A program made the position numbers and the translations under genes. Positions 6,636 to 23,441 of a stretch of DNA of 54,350 bases are shown in pieces. Within the stretch, counting starts at the first letter, position 1; each line of letters begins with the position of its first letter. This DNA is from Acidocella sp. KAb 2-4. Its GTDB lineage: Bacteria; Pseudomonadota; Alphaproteobacteria; Acetobacterales; Acetobacteraceae. Location: assembly GCF_020567705.1 (NCBI RefSeq), contig NZ_JAJDJU010000018.1, positions 1 to 54,350 of the forward strand, given 5' to 3'. Under the pieces are notes generated by a model that saw only the letters and a list, made by a program, of their open reading frames with translations, had not been told where the DNA came from and searched no databases.

Positions 6636-7976
6636 CTAGTCGGCATACGGATTACTGGTGCCGCGCAGATAGATACGGATCGGCACGCCCGGCATCTCGA
6701 ACACTTCGCGCAGCGAGTTCACCAGATAGCGCTGATACGTCTCCGGCGTCTGCTCGGCGCGGGTGCCAAACAGCGCGAAAGTCGGCGGCCGTGCCTTGAT
6801 CTGCGTGATGTAGCGCAGCTTCAACCGACGCCCATCCACCAGCGGCGGCGGAAAGCGCTCCAGCGCCGCCTCAAACCAGCGGTTGAGCTGGCTGGTCGGG
6901 ATGCGCAGATTCCATTTCTCGTAGGTCGCGCGGATGGCGGGGAACAGCTTGGCCACGCCCTCGCCGGTCTCGGCCGAGAGCGGCACCACGGTGATGCCCT
7001 TCATCTGGCTCAGCGAGATGGAGATGCGGTCCAGCGCCGCCTTGCGCGCCCCGCCGCGGTCTTCCACCGCGTCCCATTTCGTCAGGGCGATCACGCAGCC
7101 CCGGCCCTCGCGCTCGATCAGCCGGGCGATGTGCAGATCCTGCTCTTGCACCCCCTGCGCCGCGTCAACCGCCAGCACCACCATCTCGGCCCGCTTCAGC
7201 GCCTCGATCGAGGAGGAGGTGGACATTTTCTCCAGCCCCTCATCCACGCGCGCGCGCTTGCGCAGCCCGGCCGTGTCCACAATCCGGTAGAGCTTGCCAT
7301 CCGGCCCGGTGAAATCGGCGGAGACAGCATCGCGCGTCAGCCCCGGCTCAGGCCCGGTGATCATCCGCTGCTCGCCCAGCAGATAATTCATCAGCGTCGA
7401 TTTTCCGGCATTGGGCCGCCCGACGATGGCCAGATGCAGCGGCAGGGTCTCGCCCTCCTCACCCTCTTGCGCTTCCGGCCGGGGCAGCTGGTCGGCGATC
7501 TCGGTCATCAGGTTATAGATGCCCTCGTTATGCTCTGCCGAAACGGCGCAAGGCTCGCCCAGCCCCAACTCATAGGCCTCCATCGCCGCCGCCGCCCCGC
7601 CGCGCCCCTCGGCCTTGTTCGCCACCACCAGCACCGGCTTGCCCGAGCGGCGCAGCCAGGCGGCGAAATGGTGATCCTCGGGGATCAGCCCGGCGCGGGC
7701 ATCGAATACGAACAGCACAAGGTCGGCATTATCCACCGCCAGCGAGGTCGAGGCCCGCATCCGCCCCGGTAGGGTGTCGGGCGCGGCCTCCTCCAGCCCG
7801 GCTGTGTCCACCAGCAGCACCTTGGTGCCGGCGAGCACGCATTCGGCTTCCTTGCGGTCGCGCGTTACCCCCGGCGTGTCGGCCACGAGCGCGATGCGCG
7901 CCCCGGCCAGCCGGTTAAAGAGTGTGGACTTGCCGACATTCGGCCGTCCGGCAATGACAACGCGCGGCAGCATCAT
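6636..7976 (-). CDS. der: Ribosome assembly GTPase Der (EngA)
   Basis: The protein has two tandem GTPase domains and a C-terminal KH-like domain. It works in maturation of the 50S subunit. G1 of domain 1 is AGRPNVGKST at the N-terminus with DTAGLEE and NKAEG; G1 of domain 2 is VGRPNAGKST (about 190) with DTAGLRKRARVD and LTKWD. The KH part ends LRYITQIKARPPTFALFG and RIYLRGTSNPY. The ATG at 7976 is chosen to start at MMLPRVVIAG; a GTG at 7982 overlapping the bamB stop would add two residues. The order yfgM-bamB-der matches that of E. coli. Confidence 0.95.
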   Translation of the reverse strand: MMLPRVVIAGRPNVGKSTLFNRLAGARIALVADTPGVTRDRKEAECVLAGTKVLLVDTAGLEEAAPDTLPGRMRASTSLAVDNADLVLFVFDARAGLIPEDHHFAAWLRRSGKPVLVVANKAEGRGGAAAAMEAYELGLGEPCAVSAEHNEGIYNLMTEIADQLPRPEAQEGEEGETLPLHLAIVGRPNAGKSTLMNYLLGEQRMITGPEPGLTRDAVSADFTGPDGKLYRIVDTAGLRKRARVDEGLEKMSTSSSIEALKRAEMVVLAVDAAQGVQEQDLHIARLIEREGRGCVIALTKWDAVEDRGGARKAALDRISISLSQMKGITVVPLSAETGEGVAKLFPAIRATYEKWNLRIPTSQLNRWFEAALERFPPPLVDGRRLKLRYITQIKARPPTFALFGTRAEQTPETYQRYLVNSLREVFEMPGVPIRIYLRGTSNPYAD

Positions 7977-19061: not shown

Positions 19062-21569
19062 TTACGGCGTCACGCCATCCCAGGGGCCGGGAGCGCCGGA
19101 GGGGTAAGGCGTGTCCTGCGCTAGCACGCGCGCGAACTCCGCCGGGGGCAGCGGGTGGTGGAACAGATAACCCTGCGCCTGGGTGCAGCCATAGGCGGCA
19201 AGCAGCGCCGCCTGTTCCGGCGTTTCCACGCCTTCCGCCGTCACCTGCATGCTCATCCGCTGCGCCAGCCCGATGATGGCGAGGATGATGGCGCTGCCAT
19301 CCTGCGCGGGGCCGAGGTCGCGGATGAAGGAACGGTCGATTTTGATTTTATGGAATGGGAAGCGCCGCAGATAAGAGAGCGACGAATAGCCGGTGCCGAA
19401 ATCATCGAGCGCGATCTGCACACCGCGCTCGCGCAGGCTCCAGAGCAGCTTCTCGGTCTCGGCGCTGGTTTCCAGCATCACCGACTCGACGACCTCCACC
19501 TCCAGCCGCGTGGCGGGCAGGCCGGAGCTGCTCAACGCCTTGTCGATCGAGGTGAGTACCTCGCCATCGCGGAATTGCAGCGGCGAGAGATTCACCGCCA
19601 CCATCACCGGCAGCGGCCAGGTGGTGGCGCTGGCGCAGGCTTCCCTCAGCACCCAATCGCCGATCTCATGGATCAGCCCGGTTTCCTCGGCCAGAGGAAT
19701 GAACGAAGCCGGCCCGAGCAGCCCGAGTTCGGGATGCTGCCAGCGCACCAGCGCCTCGGCGCCGATGATGCGCTGGGTCTGCATGTCGATCACCGGCTGG
19801 AAGTCGAGCCGCAGCTCGTCATGCGCCACCGCATGGCGCAGGGCCGAGAGCAGCTTGCGGCGCTCCTGCACGCGCTCATCCATCTGCGGGTCATAGAAGC
19901 GCACCGTGCCGCGCCCATCGGCCTTGGCGCGGTAGAGCGCGAGATCGGCTTTTTTCATCAGCTGGTTGGGGGTGTCGCCATCGCGCGGCGCGATGCCAAT
20001 GCCGATGCTGACGCCGATCTGCACCAGCTTGCCGTCGAACTGGAAGGGCCGGGCCATGCGCTCGATGATGCGCCGCGCCACGGTCGCGGCTTCGTCGGCC
20101 TGGTCTGTCACCAGAATCGCCGCGAACTCGTCACCGCCCAGGCGGGTGGCCATGTCGAACTCGCGGATCGCGCCGCGCAGCCGCTCGGCCACGGCGACGA
20201 GCACGGCATCGCCCGTGGCGTGGCCGAGCGTGTCGTTGATCAGCTTGAAATTATCGAGATCGAGGCAGAGCAGCGCGAAGCCGCTGGTCTGGCAATGGTC
20301 GCAGGCGCTGTGCAGCGCCTCGGAGAACAGCACGCGGTTGGGCAGCTTGGTCAGGCTGTCATGCCGGGCGAGGAACGAGATCTGCTCCTGCTGGCGGCGC
20401 TGGCCGGTCATATCAGACCCCACGCCGTGATACCCGGCGAAGCGGCCCTGCTTGTCGAGAATCGGCTTGCCGGTGAGCGACCAATAGCGCTCCTCACCAT
20501 TCACCACGACCGGCACCACGAGGTCGCGGAATGGCGAGCGCTCGGCGATCGCGTGGCGGAGCTTTTCCAGCGCCGAGCCTGGTTGCGCGGCCTGCGCCGG
20601 CGCGCCGAGCAGCACATCGGGAAACACGCCGCGCAGTTGCTCGGCCGGGCGGCGCGCCACTTGGGCAAGGCGCTGGCTCGCCGGCTGCAACTCCAGCGCG
20701 GCGTTGGTCTCCCAGAGCCAGTCGGAGGCGCTCTCCTCGAAATCGCGCAGCAGCAGCTTGATGAGTTCAGCGTTTTCCTCGAGCCGGATGGCGCCGAGCG
20801 CGCGCTCATTGAGCCGGCGGTTGATGTAGAGCATGCAGAAGCCGGTTAGCAGGATGAAGGCGAACAGATCCAGCAGGGCATAAGCGTCCATCCGCCCAGC
20901 GGAGATCAGCGCGATCAGAATGCCGACCGAGACCGGCGCCCAATAGGCGATGCCGCAAATCGCGGGCGACACCATCACCGGCGTCGCCAGACAGCCGACC
21001 ATGATGCCGTAAAGCAGCGAGAGCTGGCCGGGATTGGCCTCGCGCACCAGCACGAACAGCATGACCGACCACAGCGCGCCGAGCACCACCAGCAGCCGCA
21101 CCATGGTGGCGAAATAGGCTTTGGCCTCCCGCGCGCCGGGCGCGATCATGCGCAACCACCGCCGTGCATTGTGCAGCAATGCGCCATAGCAAAGCACCAC
21201 CAGCGCCATCGCGACATGCCGGAACGGCGCGGTGCGGTCGTGCAGGAAGTCGAAAAACAGCAGCCCGACGGTGTTGACGCCGAGCAGCGTGATCGCCCCC
21301 ATGATGTAACTGAAGTCTTTGGCCTGATCGAGCAGCAGGCGCTCGGCCAACTCCGGCGGCACCGAGGCGCTGCTGGTCAGGCGTTTCAAGATGCCCCAAA
21401 TATCCGCACCACCGCGCACCACACGCCGCACCTGCGTATAGTGACCAGAGGCACCAGCAGAACTCGCCTCAGCACGAGGGATCAAAAACCGCTCCAAAGT
21501 CATTGGCTGCGCCGACGAGTCGGCCTCTCCGCGCGCATGCACAACTTTACGTAACGCCTTTCTCGGCAT
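19062..21569 (-). CDS. Membrane GGDEF-EAL cyclic di-GMP enzyme
   Basis: An ~835-aa protein. About 85 cytoplasmic residues precede six membrane helices (about 88-250). A PAS-like sensor follows (about 278-390, ending in the WSLTGKP...GYHGVGSDMT pattern), then GGDEF with RLGGDEFAAI (about 476-485) and EAL with GAEALVRWQHP and DDFGTGYSSLSYL. Both catalytic motifs are complete, so synthesis and breakdown are each possible. The membrane module has no diagnostic MHYT or MASE signature that I recognise. The start at 21569 (MPRKALRK) is chosen over 21710 because the upstream residues look non-coding. Divergent from the acyltransferase at 21884. Confidence 0.88.
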   Translation of the reverse strand: MPRKALRKVVHARGEADSSAQPMTLERFLIPRAEASSAGASGHYTQVRRVVRGGADIWGILKRLTSSASVPPELAERLLLDQAKDFSYIMGAITLLGVNTVGLLFFDFLHDRTAPFRHVAMALVVLCYGALLHNARRWLRMIAPGAREAKAYFATMVRLLVVLGALWSVMLFVLVREANPGQLSLLYGIMVGCLATPVMVSPAICGIAYWAPVSVGILIALISAGRMDAYALLDLFAFILLTGFCMLYINRRLNERALGAIRLEENAELIKLLLRDFEESASDWLWETNAALELQPASQRLAQVARRPAEQLRGVFPDVLLGAPAQAAQPGSALEKLRHAIAERSPFRDLVVPVVVNGEERYWSLTGKPILDKQGRFAGYHGVGSDMTGQRRQQEQISFLARHDSLTKLPNRVLFSEALHSACDHCQTSGFALLCLDLDNFKLINDTLGHATGDAVLVAVAERLRGAIREFDMATRLGGDEFAAILVTDQADEAATVARRIIERMARPFQFDGKLVQIGVSIGIGIAPRDGDTPNQLMKKADLALYRAKADGRGTVRFYDPQMDERVQERRKLLSALRHAVAHDELRLDFQPVIDMQTQRIIGAEALVRWQHPELGLLGPASFIPLAEETGLIHEIGDWVLREACASATTWPLPVMVAVNLSPLQFRDGEVLTSIDKALSSSGLPATRLEVEVVESVMLETSAETEKLLWSLRERGVQIALDDFGTGYSSLSYLRRFPFHKIKIDRSFIRDLGPAQDGSAIILAIIGLAQRMSMQVTAEGVETPEQAALLAAYGCTQAQGYLFHHPLPPAEFARVLAQDTPYPSGAPGPWDGVTP

Positions 21570-21883
21570 CACGCTATCTTTAATTGCCTGGGCGACCAGG
21601 GTGCCGCAAAAAAAACTGCACAGCCCTGCGTGGGTGCGAAATCGCGCCTCGCCGACCCGAATTCGGACAGCTCCGAATCCGCGCCCTGAGGCGAATACGG
21701 CCAACACCAAAAACTTAGAAACGATTCTTAAACGAACACGTTAACGGCGTTGGGCGTTTTCTTAGCGTTTTGCTGCCCAAACCGGCTAACAAATTGCCTT
21801 TCTGCAATAAAAAATACAGATGCAGCCAGAAGGCGAAATGATTACTAATTCTTCTTGTTTGGGTTGAATCAAGGAGAAACTTA
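21570..21883. promoter_or_regulatory. AT-richer divergent control region
   Basis: This 314-bp gap separates the GGDEF-EAL gene from the acyltransferase gene. The right half is clearly less GC-rich than its surroundings. It holds an inverted repeat TTGGGC/GCCCAA (21750-21755 and 21775-21780) with two GCGTTTT copies in its loop, and the nested repeat listed at 21796-21834. No canonical lux box is present. I could not place a -35/-10 pair with confidence. Confidence 0.4.
21796..21834 (+). promoter_or_regulatory. Nested inverted repeat before the acyltransferase gene
   Basis: Outer arms GCCTTTCTG (21796-21804) and CAGAAGGC (21827-21834) pair with one bulged T. Inner arms CTGCA (21802-21806) and TGCAG (21821-21825) compete for the same CTG. 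The A-rich loop lies between. The element ends 49 bp before the ATG, so it could be a regulator site or a switchable leader hairpin. Confidence 0.4.
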
Positions 21884-22609
21884 ATGAGCTCTTTACAAGT
21901 TGTGACGACAAGCATCGTGCGCGGTAACCATCGTGTGCAGCCGCAGGATGACGACCTCACCGCGCGCCTGGCGCTCGACGAGGCAACGAAGGCGGATGCC
22001 TACCGCATCCGCCATGCCAGCTACCTCTCGGGCGGCTATATCGACCCGATGCCGGGCGGGGTGTTCTCGGATGCCGACGACCTCAAGCCCAACAGCCGGT
22101 CAGTGGTGGTGTACAAACACGGCGAGCCGGTGGCCTCGGTGCGGTTGTGCACGCTGGATTACGACCCGGCCGTGAGCGGGTGGGATGATATCCCCGCCTC
22201 GCGCATCTTTCCCGAGGAAGTGGCGGCGCTGGCCGCCGGGGTGACGCATGGGCGCCCGCCGAAGCTGACCGAGATCAACCGCCTCGTGCGGCATCCCGAT
22301 TACGCCAATGATTACCAGTTGGTCTTCGTGCTTTACCGTTTCGTCTCGTTCCTGGTCATCGAGTCCGGCGCCGACATGATGCTCAACTGCGTGCGGCGTA
22401 ATCACACGCCGTTCTATAAGCGCATGCATTTTGGCTACATCGCCGGCCCGCGCCGCTATGCGGGCGTGAAGTTCGAGACCAACCTGATGTCCTGCCCCAG
22501 CGAGCGCTACGAGCGGCTGATGGCCGACATCCCCTTTGTCGCCACCGATGACAACACCAAGGCCGCTTATGGCGGGCTGCTGCGCGGCGACACCGTCAAC
22601 GTCTTCTGA
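21884..22609 (+). CDS. FeeM/LuxI-like N-acyltransferase (GNAT fold)
   Basis: A 241-aa soluble protein. Conserved parts are DAYRIRHASYLSGGYIDP (38-55), the VASVRL strand (83-88), LTEINRLVRHPDY (128-140) in the place of the E-x-x-R-x-x-V motif of acyl-homoserine lactone synthases, and a C-terminal NHTPFYKRMHFGYIAGPRRY. These fit the FeeM group, which makes long-chain N-acyl amino acids from acyl-ACP, better than classical LuxI, which has a shorter chain. The start has a strong AAGGAG 7 nt upstream. It is followed after 29 bp by a methyltransferase-like gene and is divergent from a cyclic di-GMP enzyme. The product is inferred; a LuxI-type product is the main alternative. Confidence 0.75.
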   Translation: MSSLQVVTTSIVRGNHRVQPQDDDLTARLALDEATKADAYRIRHASYLSGGYIDPMPGGVFSDADDLKPNSRSVVVYKHGEPVASVRLCTLDYDPAVSGWDDIPASRIFPEEVAALAAGVTHGRPPKLTEINRLVRHPDYANDYQLVFVLYRFVSFLVIESGADMMLNCVRRNHTPFYKRMHFGYIAGPRRYAGVKFETNLMSCPSERYERLMADIPFVATDDNTKAAYGGLLRGDTVNVF

Positions 22610-22638
22610 TCCCCATATCTCACGAAAGATTCTGAAAA

Positions 22639-23199
22639 ATGCACAACATCTTCACGGTCATCACCGGTCTCGACGCCACCCTCTGCTTCGCCGCCTTCTC
22701 CTGGGGCGTGCGCGGGCATTTCCGCTCCACCGGGGCCATGCCGCTGGGCATGAAGATCACCAGCCTGCTCAGCCTGGCGCTGTTTGGCGGTTTCCTGTGG
22801 CATCTGGCGCATGGGTTGGGCGCGGCATGGTTCGTCTCCATTGTGCTGTTCACCGCCTCGCTCGGCGTGTTCGCCACCGCCATCCTGGCCAGCCGCCGCA
22901 CCCCGCCGACCCTGGCCTACGACACCGACGCCCCGAACTTCCTGCTCAAGCACGGCCCGTACCGTTACGTCCGTCATCCGTTCTATCTGGCTTATGTGCT
23001 GTTCTGGTTCGGCACCGCGCTGGCCGTGCACAGCCTGGCCGGCTGGCTCGCCCCGGTGGTGATGACCGCGCTCTATGTCGACGCCGCCTCCCGCGAGGAG
23101 CGCAAATTCGCGACCTCCGACCTTGCCGCTTCCTATGCCGCCTACCGCGCCCGCGCCGGCATGTTCTGGCCGCGCCCGCTGGCCCTGTTGGCTGGCTGA
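22639..23199 (+). CDS. Isoprenylcysteine carboxyl methyltransferase-like membrane enzyme
   Basis: A 186-aa integral membrane protein with four to five helices (about 3-22, 38-58, 62-84, 115-150). The C-terminal half carries the ICMT/PEMT signature: GPYRYVRHPFYLAY (106-119), then SREERKF (151-157) and SYAAYRARAGMF (165-176). In this superfamily those residues bind S-adenosylmethionine and the substrate headgroup. Known members methylate carboxyls of lipidated cysteine, or phospholipid amines. Bacteria do not prenylate proteins in this way, so a lipid-like small molecule made by the upstream acyltransferase is an attractive substrate (inference). The 29-bp gap suggests one transcript. Confidence 0.82.
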   Translation: MHNIFTVITGLDATLCFAAFSWGVRGHFRSTGAMPLGMKITSLLSLALFGGFLWHLAHGLGAAWFVSIVLFTASLGVFATAILASRRTPPTLAYDTDAPNFLLKHGPYRYVRHPFYLAYVLFWFGTALAVHSLAGWLAPVVMTALYVDAASREERKFATSDLAASYAAYRARAGMFWPRPLALLAG

Positions 23200-23315: not shown

Positions 23316-23441
23316 TTAGCCCTGGCGCGCCTTCATGCGCGGGTTCTTCTTGTTGATCACGTAGACCCGGCCATGACGGCGGACGACGCGGCAGTTCTTG
23401 TCGCGGATTTTCGCGGACTTCAAGGAGTTACGGATCTTCAT
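23316..23441 (-). CDS. rpmJ: 50S ribosomal protein L36, zinc-free type
   Basis: A 41-aa basic protein starting [16 protein letters not shown] and ending [13 protein letters not shown]36 is the smallest protein of the large subunit. The usual C-x2-C...C-x4-H zinc ribbon is absent; only one Cys remains (KNCRVVRR), so this is the zinc-independent form standard in alphaproteobacteria. It is encoded alone and has its own terminator. The longer open frame to 23513 is ignored because the L36 start is diagnostic. Confidence 0.95.

Follow-up and report, generated by a model that had tools for sequence, protein, structure and literature searches.

What is an N-acyl amino acid synthase doing beside a membrane methyltransferase and an enzyme of cyclic di-GMP (c-di-GMP) turnover? 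The question is raised by Acidocella sp. KAb 2-4, in a stretch of 54,350 nucleotides (hereafter the window) that makes up an entire contig, NZ_JAJDJU010000018.1, of a 3.1-Mb genome. Throughout, the family, class and phylum are Acetobacteraceae, Alphaproteobacteria and Pseudomonadota. Three genes concern us, encoding the synthase FeeM, the methyltransferase MT and a membrane protein that we call the sensor, and they are conserved neighbours in the family. We give an even chance to the reading that they constitute a self-contained lipid-signal module, by which an N-acyl amino acid would be made, methyl-esterified and sensed at the membrane, with a change in c-di-GMP as the outcome. Carboxyl methylation, membrane sensing of the product and the c-di-GMP output are the parts that we infer.

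21884..22609, + strand: feeM, N-acyl amino acid synthase of the FeeM family, 241 amino acids
22639..23199, + strand: MT, integral-membrane methyltransferase of the PEMT/ICMT superfamily, 186 amino acids (Pfam and NCBIfam scores, profile matches)
19062..21503, − strand: membrane sensor with PAS, GGDEF and EAL (ATG at 21503 chosen as start)

The two forward open reading frames are separated by 29 bp, as the initial annotation had reported in describing a two-gene unit on one strand. The pair stood, but its size did not: the unit comprises three genes, and there are comparable sets in which the sensor output or the methyltransferase is a different one. Relatives of FeeM at E ≤ 1e-10 occur in 35 of 299 genomes of the family, in 48 match rows. 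Two of these rows belong to a single broken gene, which leaves 47 genes, and every one of the 47 loci was searched with three profiles: A1 for FeeM, A2 for MT and A3 for the membrane domain of the sensor. A six-helix sensor domain, joined to PAS, GGDEF and usually EAL, lies within about 3 kb of FeeM in 42 of them; among the 47 it was not found in L071 (where the contig ends), L090, L091, L093 and L094 (a fragment). The tentatively proposed link to c-di-GMP is in fact the most conserved part of the arrangement. Intact MT is present in 25 of the 47 loci and adjoins FeeM in 24 of these; in L082, FeeM is inverted and lies approximately 2.4 to 3.2 kb away from MT and sensor, which stand together, and L054 has a remnant of MT only. 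Conservation of the pair in relatives, a check set beforehand, was thus borne out. The pairing recurs down to approximately 33% identity and is more than chance. Of the 27 loci in which MT was matched, 7 show a 4-bp overlap between FeeM and MT (with script-chosen starts and a few places counted twice). In the six loci of the genus Acidocella the sensor gene is divergent and upstream; wherever else a locus has both MT and a sensor, L082 excepted, the sensor gene follows on the same strand.

The association is also specific. The MT profile was run on 80 genomes, namely all 35 that have FeeM, plus 45, G140 among them, from the 264 that lack it. It returned 26 matches of at least 200 bits, 25 in FeeM loci and one in G140 beside a sensor; the next best, at 60 bits, was the L054 remnant, and all others were at or below 53 bits. 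Strong MT matches are confined to the three-gene module in the genomes tested. The sensor-domain profile matched 42 of the 299 family genomes, and every match above 125 bits adjoins FeeM, G140 excepted (weaker ones away from FeeM were not studied). Across the class it matched 13 of 337 genomes, two within the family and 11, more weakly, outside. MT and sensor matches even share one open frame in G059, G108 (C226) and G206 (C670), with 1000, 1010 and 1114 codons; by Pfam, the G059 frame holds PAS_4, GGDEF and EAL, with PEMT just under its cut-off (23.3 vs 25 bits). G108 and G206 are of one genus. G140, a species of the window's own genus, retains a sensor and MT (L095, 2011-3825) and lacks FeeM, with no FeeM remnant better than E 0.26. 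Such a species may receive the signal without sending one. A tree was built from 45 of the 47 FeeM genes and eight outgroup rows. Of its 21 rows that lack an intact MT, 20 group together (support 94/89) and MT rows make up the remainder, the MT label changing three times as against 17.8 in shuffles. One reading of this tree, the root of which is not firm, is that MT was ancestral in the family and was lost once, in addition to the L054 remnant.

That the window FeeM makes an N-acyl amino acid is well supported by its family and predicted fold. FeeM (PF21926) was the sole Pfam family matched at E ≤ 1, with 97.1 bits against a cut-off of 27. The predicted fold resembles FeeM/NasY-type synthases and also acyl-homoserine lactone (AHL) synthases; searches by sequence alone for solved relatives gave nothing significant. 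Residue E130, invariant in 23 alignment rows, may be the counterpart of Glu95, given in passages of PMC4897644 as the catalytic glutamate of FeeM.

The second gene had been annotated as an ICMT-like membrane methyltransferase, and this was upheld. MT exceeds the Pfam cut-offs for PEMT (PF04191, 37.8 bits, cut-off 25), DUF1295 (PF06966, 29.5 bits, cut-off 20.4) and ICMT (PF04140, 26.1 bits, cut-off 24), and contains the motifs GPYRYVRHPFYLAY and REERKF. By profile, its C-terminal half aligns with isoprenylcysteine carboxyl methyltransferase (4a2n and 5v7p, E 3e-8 and 4e-7). Unlike true ICMT, MT belongs to a subfamily of its own tied to FeeM, and it scores 35 bits, against a cut-off of 160, with the NCBIfam equivalog NF040696 (protein-S-isoprenylcysteine O-methyltransferase).

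The sensor, divergent from feeM, has a hydrophobic N-terminal part followed by PAS_4, GGDEF and EAL, with the GGDEF, EAL and DDFGTG motifs intact. Its open frame extends up to a TTG at 21710, which gives 882 amino acids.

20703..21353, − strand: six-helix membrane domain and start of the PAS linker (alignment A3, model pLDDT 90, VIA matches)
20394..20732, − strand: PAS_4 domain (Pfam, residues 327-439 of the 882-amino-acid frame)
19908..20369, − strand: GGDEF domain (156.7 bits)
19152..19844, − strand: EAL domain (240.8 bits)

The model of the membrane part appears similar to the membrane parts of nucleotide cyclases. The synthases that accompany the CqsS and LqsS kinases differ from FeeM. These kinases and the six-helix anchors of adenylyl cyclases also place a six-helix membrane domain before a signalling enzyme, with lipophilic ligands, and some of the cyclase domains are reported as lipid receptors in passages of PMC4821796 and PMC11606603. 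In PMC4821796 the six-helix domain of CqsS was joined to a reporter cyclase. The ligand class differs from the one proposed here, where the output is GGDEF-EAL.

In the proposed mechanism, FeeM would join a fatty acyl group, presumably from acyl carrier protein, to an amino acid, a step well supported by family and fold. MT would use S-adenosylmethionine to esterify the carboxylate, leaving the lipid uncharged and mobile in and across membranes. The ester, from the same or neighbouring cells, could then bind the six-helix domain of the adjacent PAS-GGDEF-EAL protein, and the balance between synthesis and breakdown of c-di-GMP would shift, as the intact motifs suggest. In Roseobacters the same logic would operate through a membrane histidine kinase.

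The Roseobacter sets bear on the chemistry of this scheme. A plasmid of Loktanella salsilacus (L152, 2709-5504) has three consecutive genes, for a histidine kinase, a PEMT/ICMT-type methyltransferase and FeeM, with a 4-bp overlap between the second and the third; this is a candidate operon for N-acyl amino acid methyl esters. With profile A2 the Loktanella methyltransferase scored 114 bits, and those of G952 and G1069 scored 115 and 142. By its 16S, compared with plasmid records only, G1069 is nearest to Sulfitobacter (96.7%). A second kind of set combines a class I methyltransferase, FeeM and a membrane histidine kinase (L144, L145, L150, L151, L155, L162 and L163), as on Sulfitobacter plasmids (by annotation, with Pfam for one). 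The order is FeeM, methyltransferase, kinase in G845 and G917 by Pfam and, from motifs alone, in G995 and G1076; the methyltransferase gene of L151 is short and lies after a transposase. The membrane parts of the kinases align across both kinds of operon, with 35-39% identity to the Loktanella kinase. Profile comparisons among the three kinds of sensor (A3/A5, A3/A6 and A5/A6, all small alignments) gave no sign of a common origin. Two unrelated methyltransferases thus occupy the same setting; of the arguments from sequence for a link between methylation and the FeeM product, this is the strongest. Such sets are rare, since the Loktanella FeeM as query matched five of 179 genomes of its family. 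In L145, two response regulators diverge from FeeM.

Reported producers of such esters are Roseovarius tolerans EL-164, Roseovarius sp. D12_1.68 and Loktanella sp. F13, F14 and D3. Three Loktanella strains are reported to make N-acylglycine methyl esters, and Roseovarius to make related ones, in passages of PMC6296433 that call them specific to these genera; those passages neither name L. salsilacus as a producer nor mention Sulfitobacter. According to passages of PMC11580390, no candidate synthase genes for the Roseobacter esters had been found so far. These compounds match the predicted product class, and L. salsilacus has FeeM beside a relative of MT; they are compounds without known genes, and the Roseobacter sensor is a histidine kinase rather than a GGDEF-EAL protein. 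An N-acyl amino acid methyl ester, the product that the initial annotation had envisaged, becomes more likely because of the Loktanella operon together with the esters from other Loktanella strains. The clusters for stieleriacines and N-acyl tyrosines (PMC12479983) likewise have genes for an N-acyl amino acid synthase and a methyltransferase close together. There, methylation falls on the aromatic ring or phenol, ThiF and nitroreductase genes are present, and the passages available mention neither an isoprenylcysteine-type methyltransferase nor a sensor.

Outside the family, PF21926 was used to find wider FeeM families because profile A1 matched, at E ≤ 1e-8, only the Acidocella genome itself and G056 of 337 in the class, both of the family. 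At E ≤ 0.001 PF21926 was found in 84 of 349 genomes of the phylum, 59 of them over the cut-off. Among the best 30 loci, 21 outside the family have EAL within about 1.5 kb (20 of these also GGDEF), two are the family's own module, and seven have neither domain. In 12 loci that were extended (L130-L141; group L101-L126), a membrane-PAS-GGDEF-EAL gene directly precedes FeeM (Pfam for one), and no MT was found. We call them rhizobial-type, a guessed label; weak kin occur on rhizobial plasmids. The association is wide and deserves separate study.

The main rival of the signalling module reverses the direction of control. The GGDEF-EAL protein would sense some other cue (the state of the membrane, or oxygen through PAS), and c-di-GMP would govern synthesis or use of the lipid, the protein being a regulator instead of a receptor, as passages of PMC4897644 propose for PilZ-fused synthases. 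The PAS domain of the sensor fits this idea, which we nevertheless find rather improbable: Pfam detects no PilZ or other second domain in the window FeeM, histidine kinases, with which FeeM is paired as well, produce no second messenger, the MT-sensor fusions set the product-modifying step next to the sensor, and G140 keeps sensor and MT in the absence of FeeM. It is also somewhat unlikely that MT acts elsewhere than on the carboxylate of the FeeM product, for example on the amine or hydroxyl of an unusual acylated amine, on a phosphate or on another membrane lipid, in which case a lipid would still be made and sensed, and would not be a methyl ester. The higher Pfam score for PEMT than for ICMT and the large shortfall from the NCBIfam cut-off are in its favor, and the substrate of this FeeM is only predicted; the recurrence of an unrelated methyltransferase in the Roseobacter sets argues for the FeeM product.

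Two further explanations dispense with the proposed signal. The pair might supply the envelope or biofilm with a structural aminolipid or a surfactant; no signalling would be involved, and c-di-GMP would act near by as a commonplace switch for biofilm. N-acyl amino acids can be biosurfactants (passages of PMC4897644), and sugar-nucleotide and glycosyltransferase genes lie near by in the window; the specificity of the sensor domain for FeeM loci and the lack of an exosortase gene in this genome make the explanation quite improbable. That the synthase is an ordinary AHL synthase we discount nearly altogether. Its predicted fold would allow it, the Loktanella relative is so annotated, and Roseobacter relatives score just over the Autoind_synth cut-off. 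Yet Autoind_synth (PF00765) has no match at E ≤ 1 in the window protein, its only match in the genome being another gene, a separate true LuxI, and a homoserine lactone would offer no free carboxylate for esterification. We rejected this identity because of the Pfam result and the separate LuxI; the initial assignment of the gene to a LuxI/FeeM type holds for FeeM and, by Pfam, fails for LuxI.

With respect to earlier FeeM/NasY-type synthases, the window FeeM shares the family (PF21926) and the predicted fold. In passages of PMC4897644 these are single enzymes or parts of other pathways, either PEP-CTERM/exosortase-linked (Craig et al. 2011, as cited there) or PilZ-fused, and their role is described as still not clear. 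An exosortase-linked synthase was rejected here, PF09721 having no match in the genome (in the control, one of 14 matched). Our search of open-licence PubMed Central, which does not imply absence from print, found no description of a FeeM-type synthase joined to a membrane methyltransferase or GGDEF gene.

A wider proposition, possible though less than probable, is that alphaproteobacterial FeeM proteins produce the signals in a form of chemical communication not described before. The signals would be N-acyl amino acids, in many cases converted to methyl esters by one or another exchangeable methyltransferase, and six-helix receptors linked to the synthase would read them and pass them on to c-di-GMP or to a phosphorelay. 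On this view the missing pathway to N-acyl alanine and N-acylglycine methyl esters (NAME/NAGME) would be the Loktanella operon. The receptors, whose ligand would be genetically encoded, would be a counterpart of the membrane domains by which animal adenylyl cyclases sense lipids. The main reading, if true, would amount to a new kind of chemical communication in acid-loving bacteria, would give N-acyl amino acid synthases a function and the marine Roseobacter esters candidate genes, and would link a LuxI-fold synthase directly to c-di-GMP. As the maker of the ligand and the membrane sensor are neighbours, what six-helix domains sense becomes directly testable, in Acidocella aminolytica 101 (DSM 11237) and Loktanella salsilacus.

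The sensor and feeM are separated by an intergenic region.

21504..21883, no strand: AT-rich region between the divergent sensor and feeM (no sigma-70-like site; leader before feeM alike in the genus)

A consensus scan of this region found no promoter or operator, and when the upstream regions of six genus members were aligned, the leader at 21840-21883, directly 5' of feeM, was the sole similar part. On the opposite strand, 3' of MT, a gene of 41 amino acids at 23316-23441 (−) presumably encodes ribosomal protein L36. In an Acidocella aromatica contig (L097, approximately 7048-7682, genome G187) the sensor match is split into two parts that lie in different frames, which makes the gene look broken in that assembly. 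L035 and L038 are two short, unjoined contigs of one metagenome bin, each with part of a close FeeM relative. Passages of PMC8776678 find NasY homologues among Acetobacteraceae type strains in Acidiphilium only and do not report the three-gene module; they list two AHL clusters for Acidocella aminolytica, in agreement with the two LuxI-family genes in G283. On two Acidiphilium plasmids (L149 and L154) no MT or sensor match occurs in the fetched stretch; FeeM is there accompanied by a divergent hypothetical gene, which in L149 has a helix-turn-helix match close to the cut-off, and by an integrase downstream.
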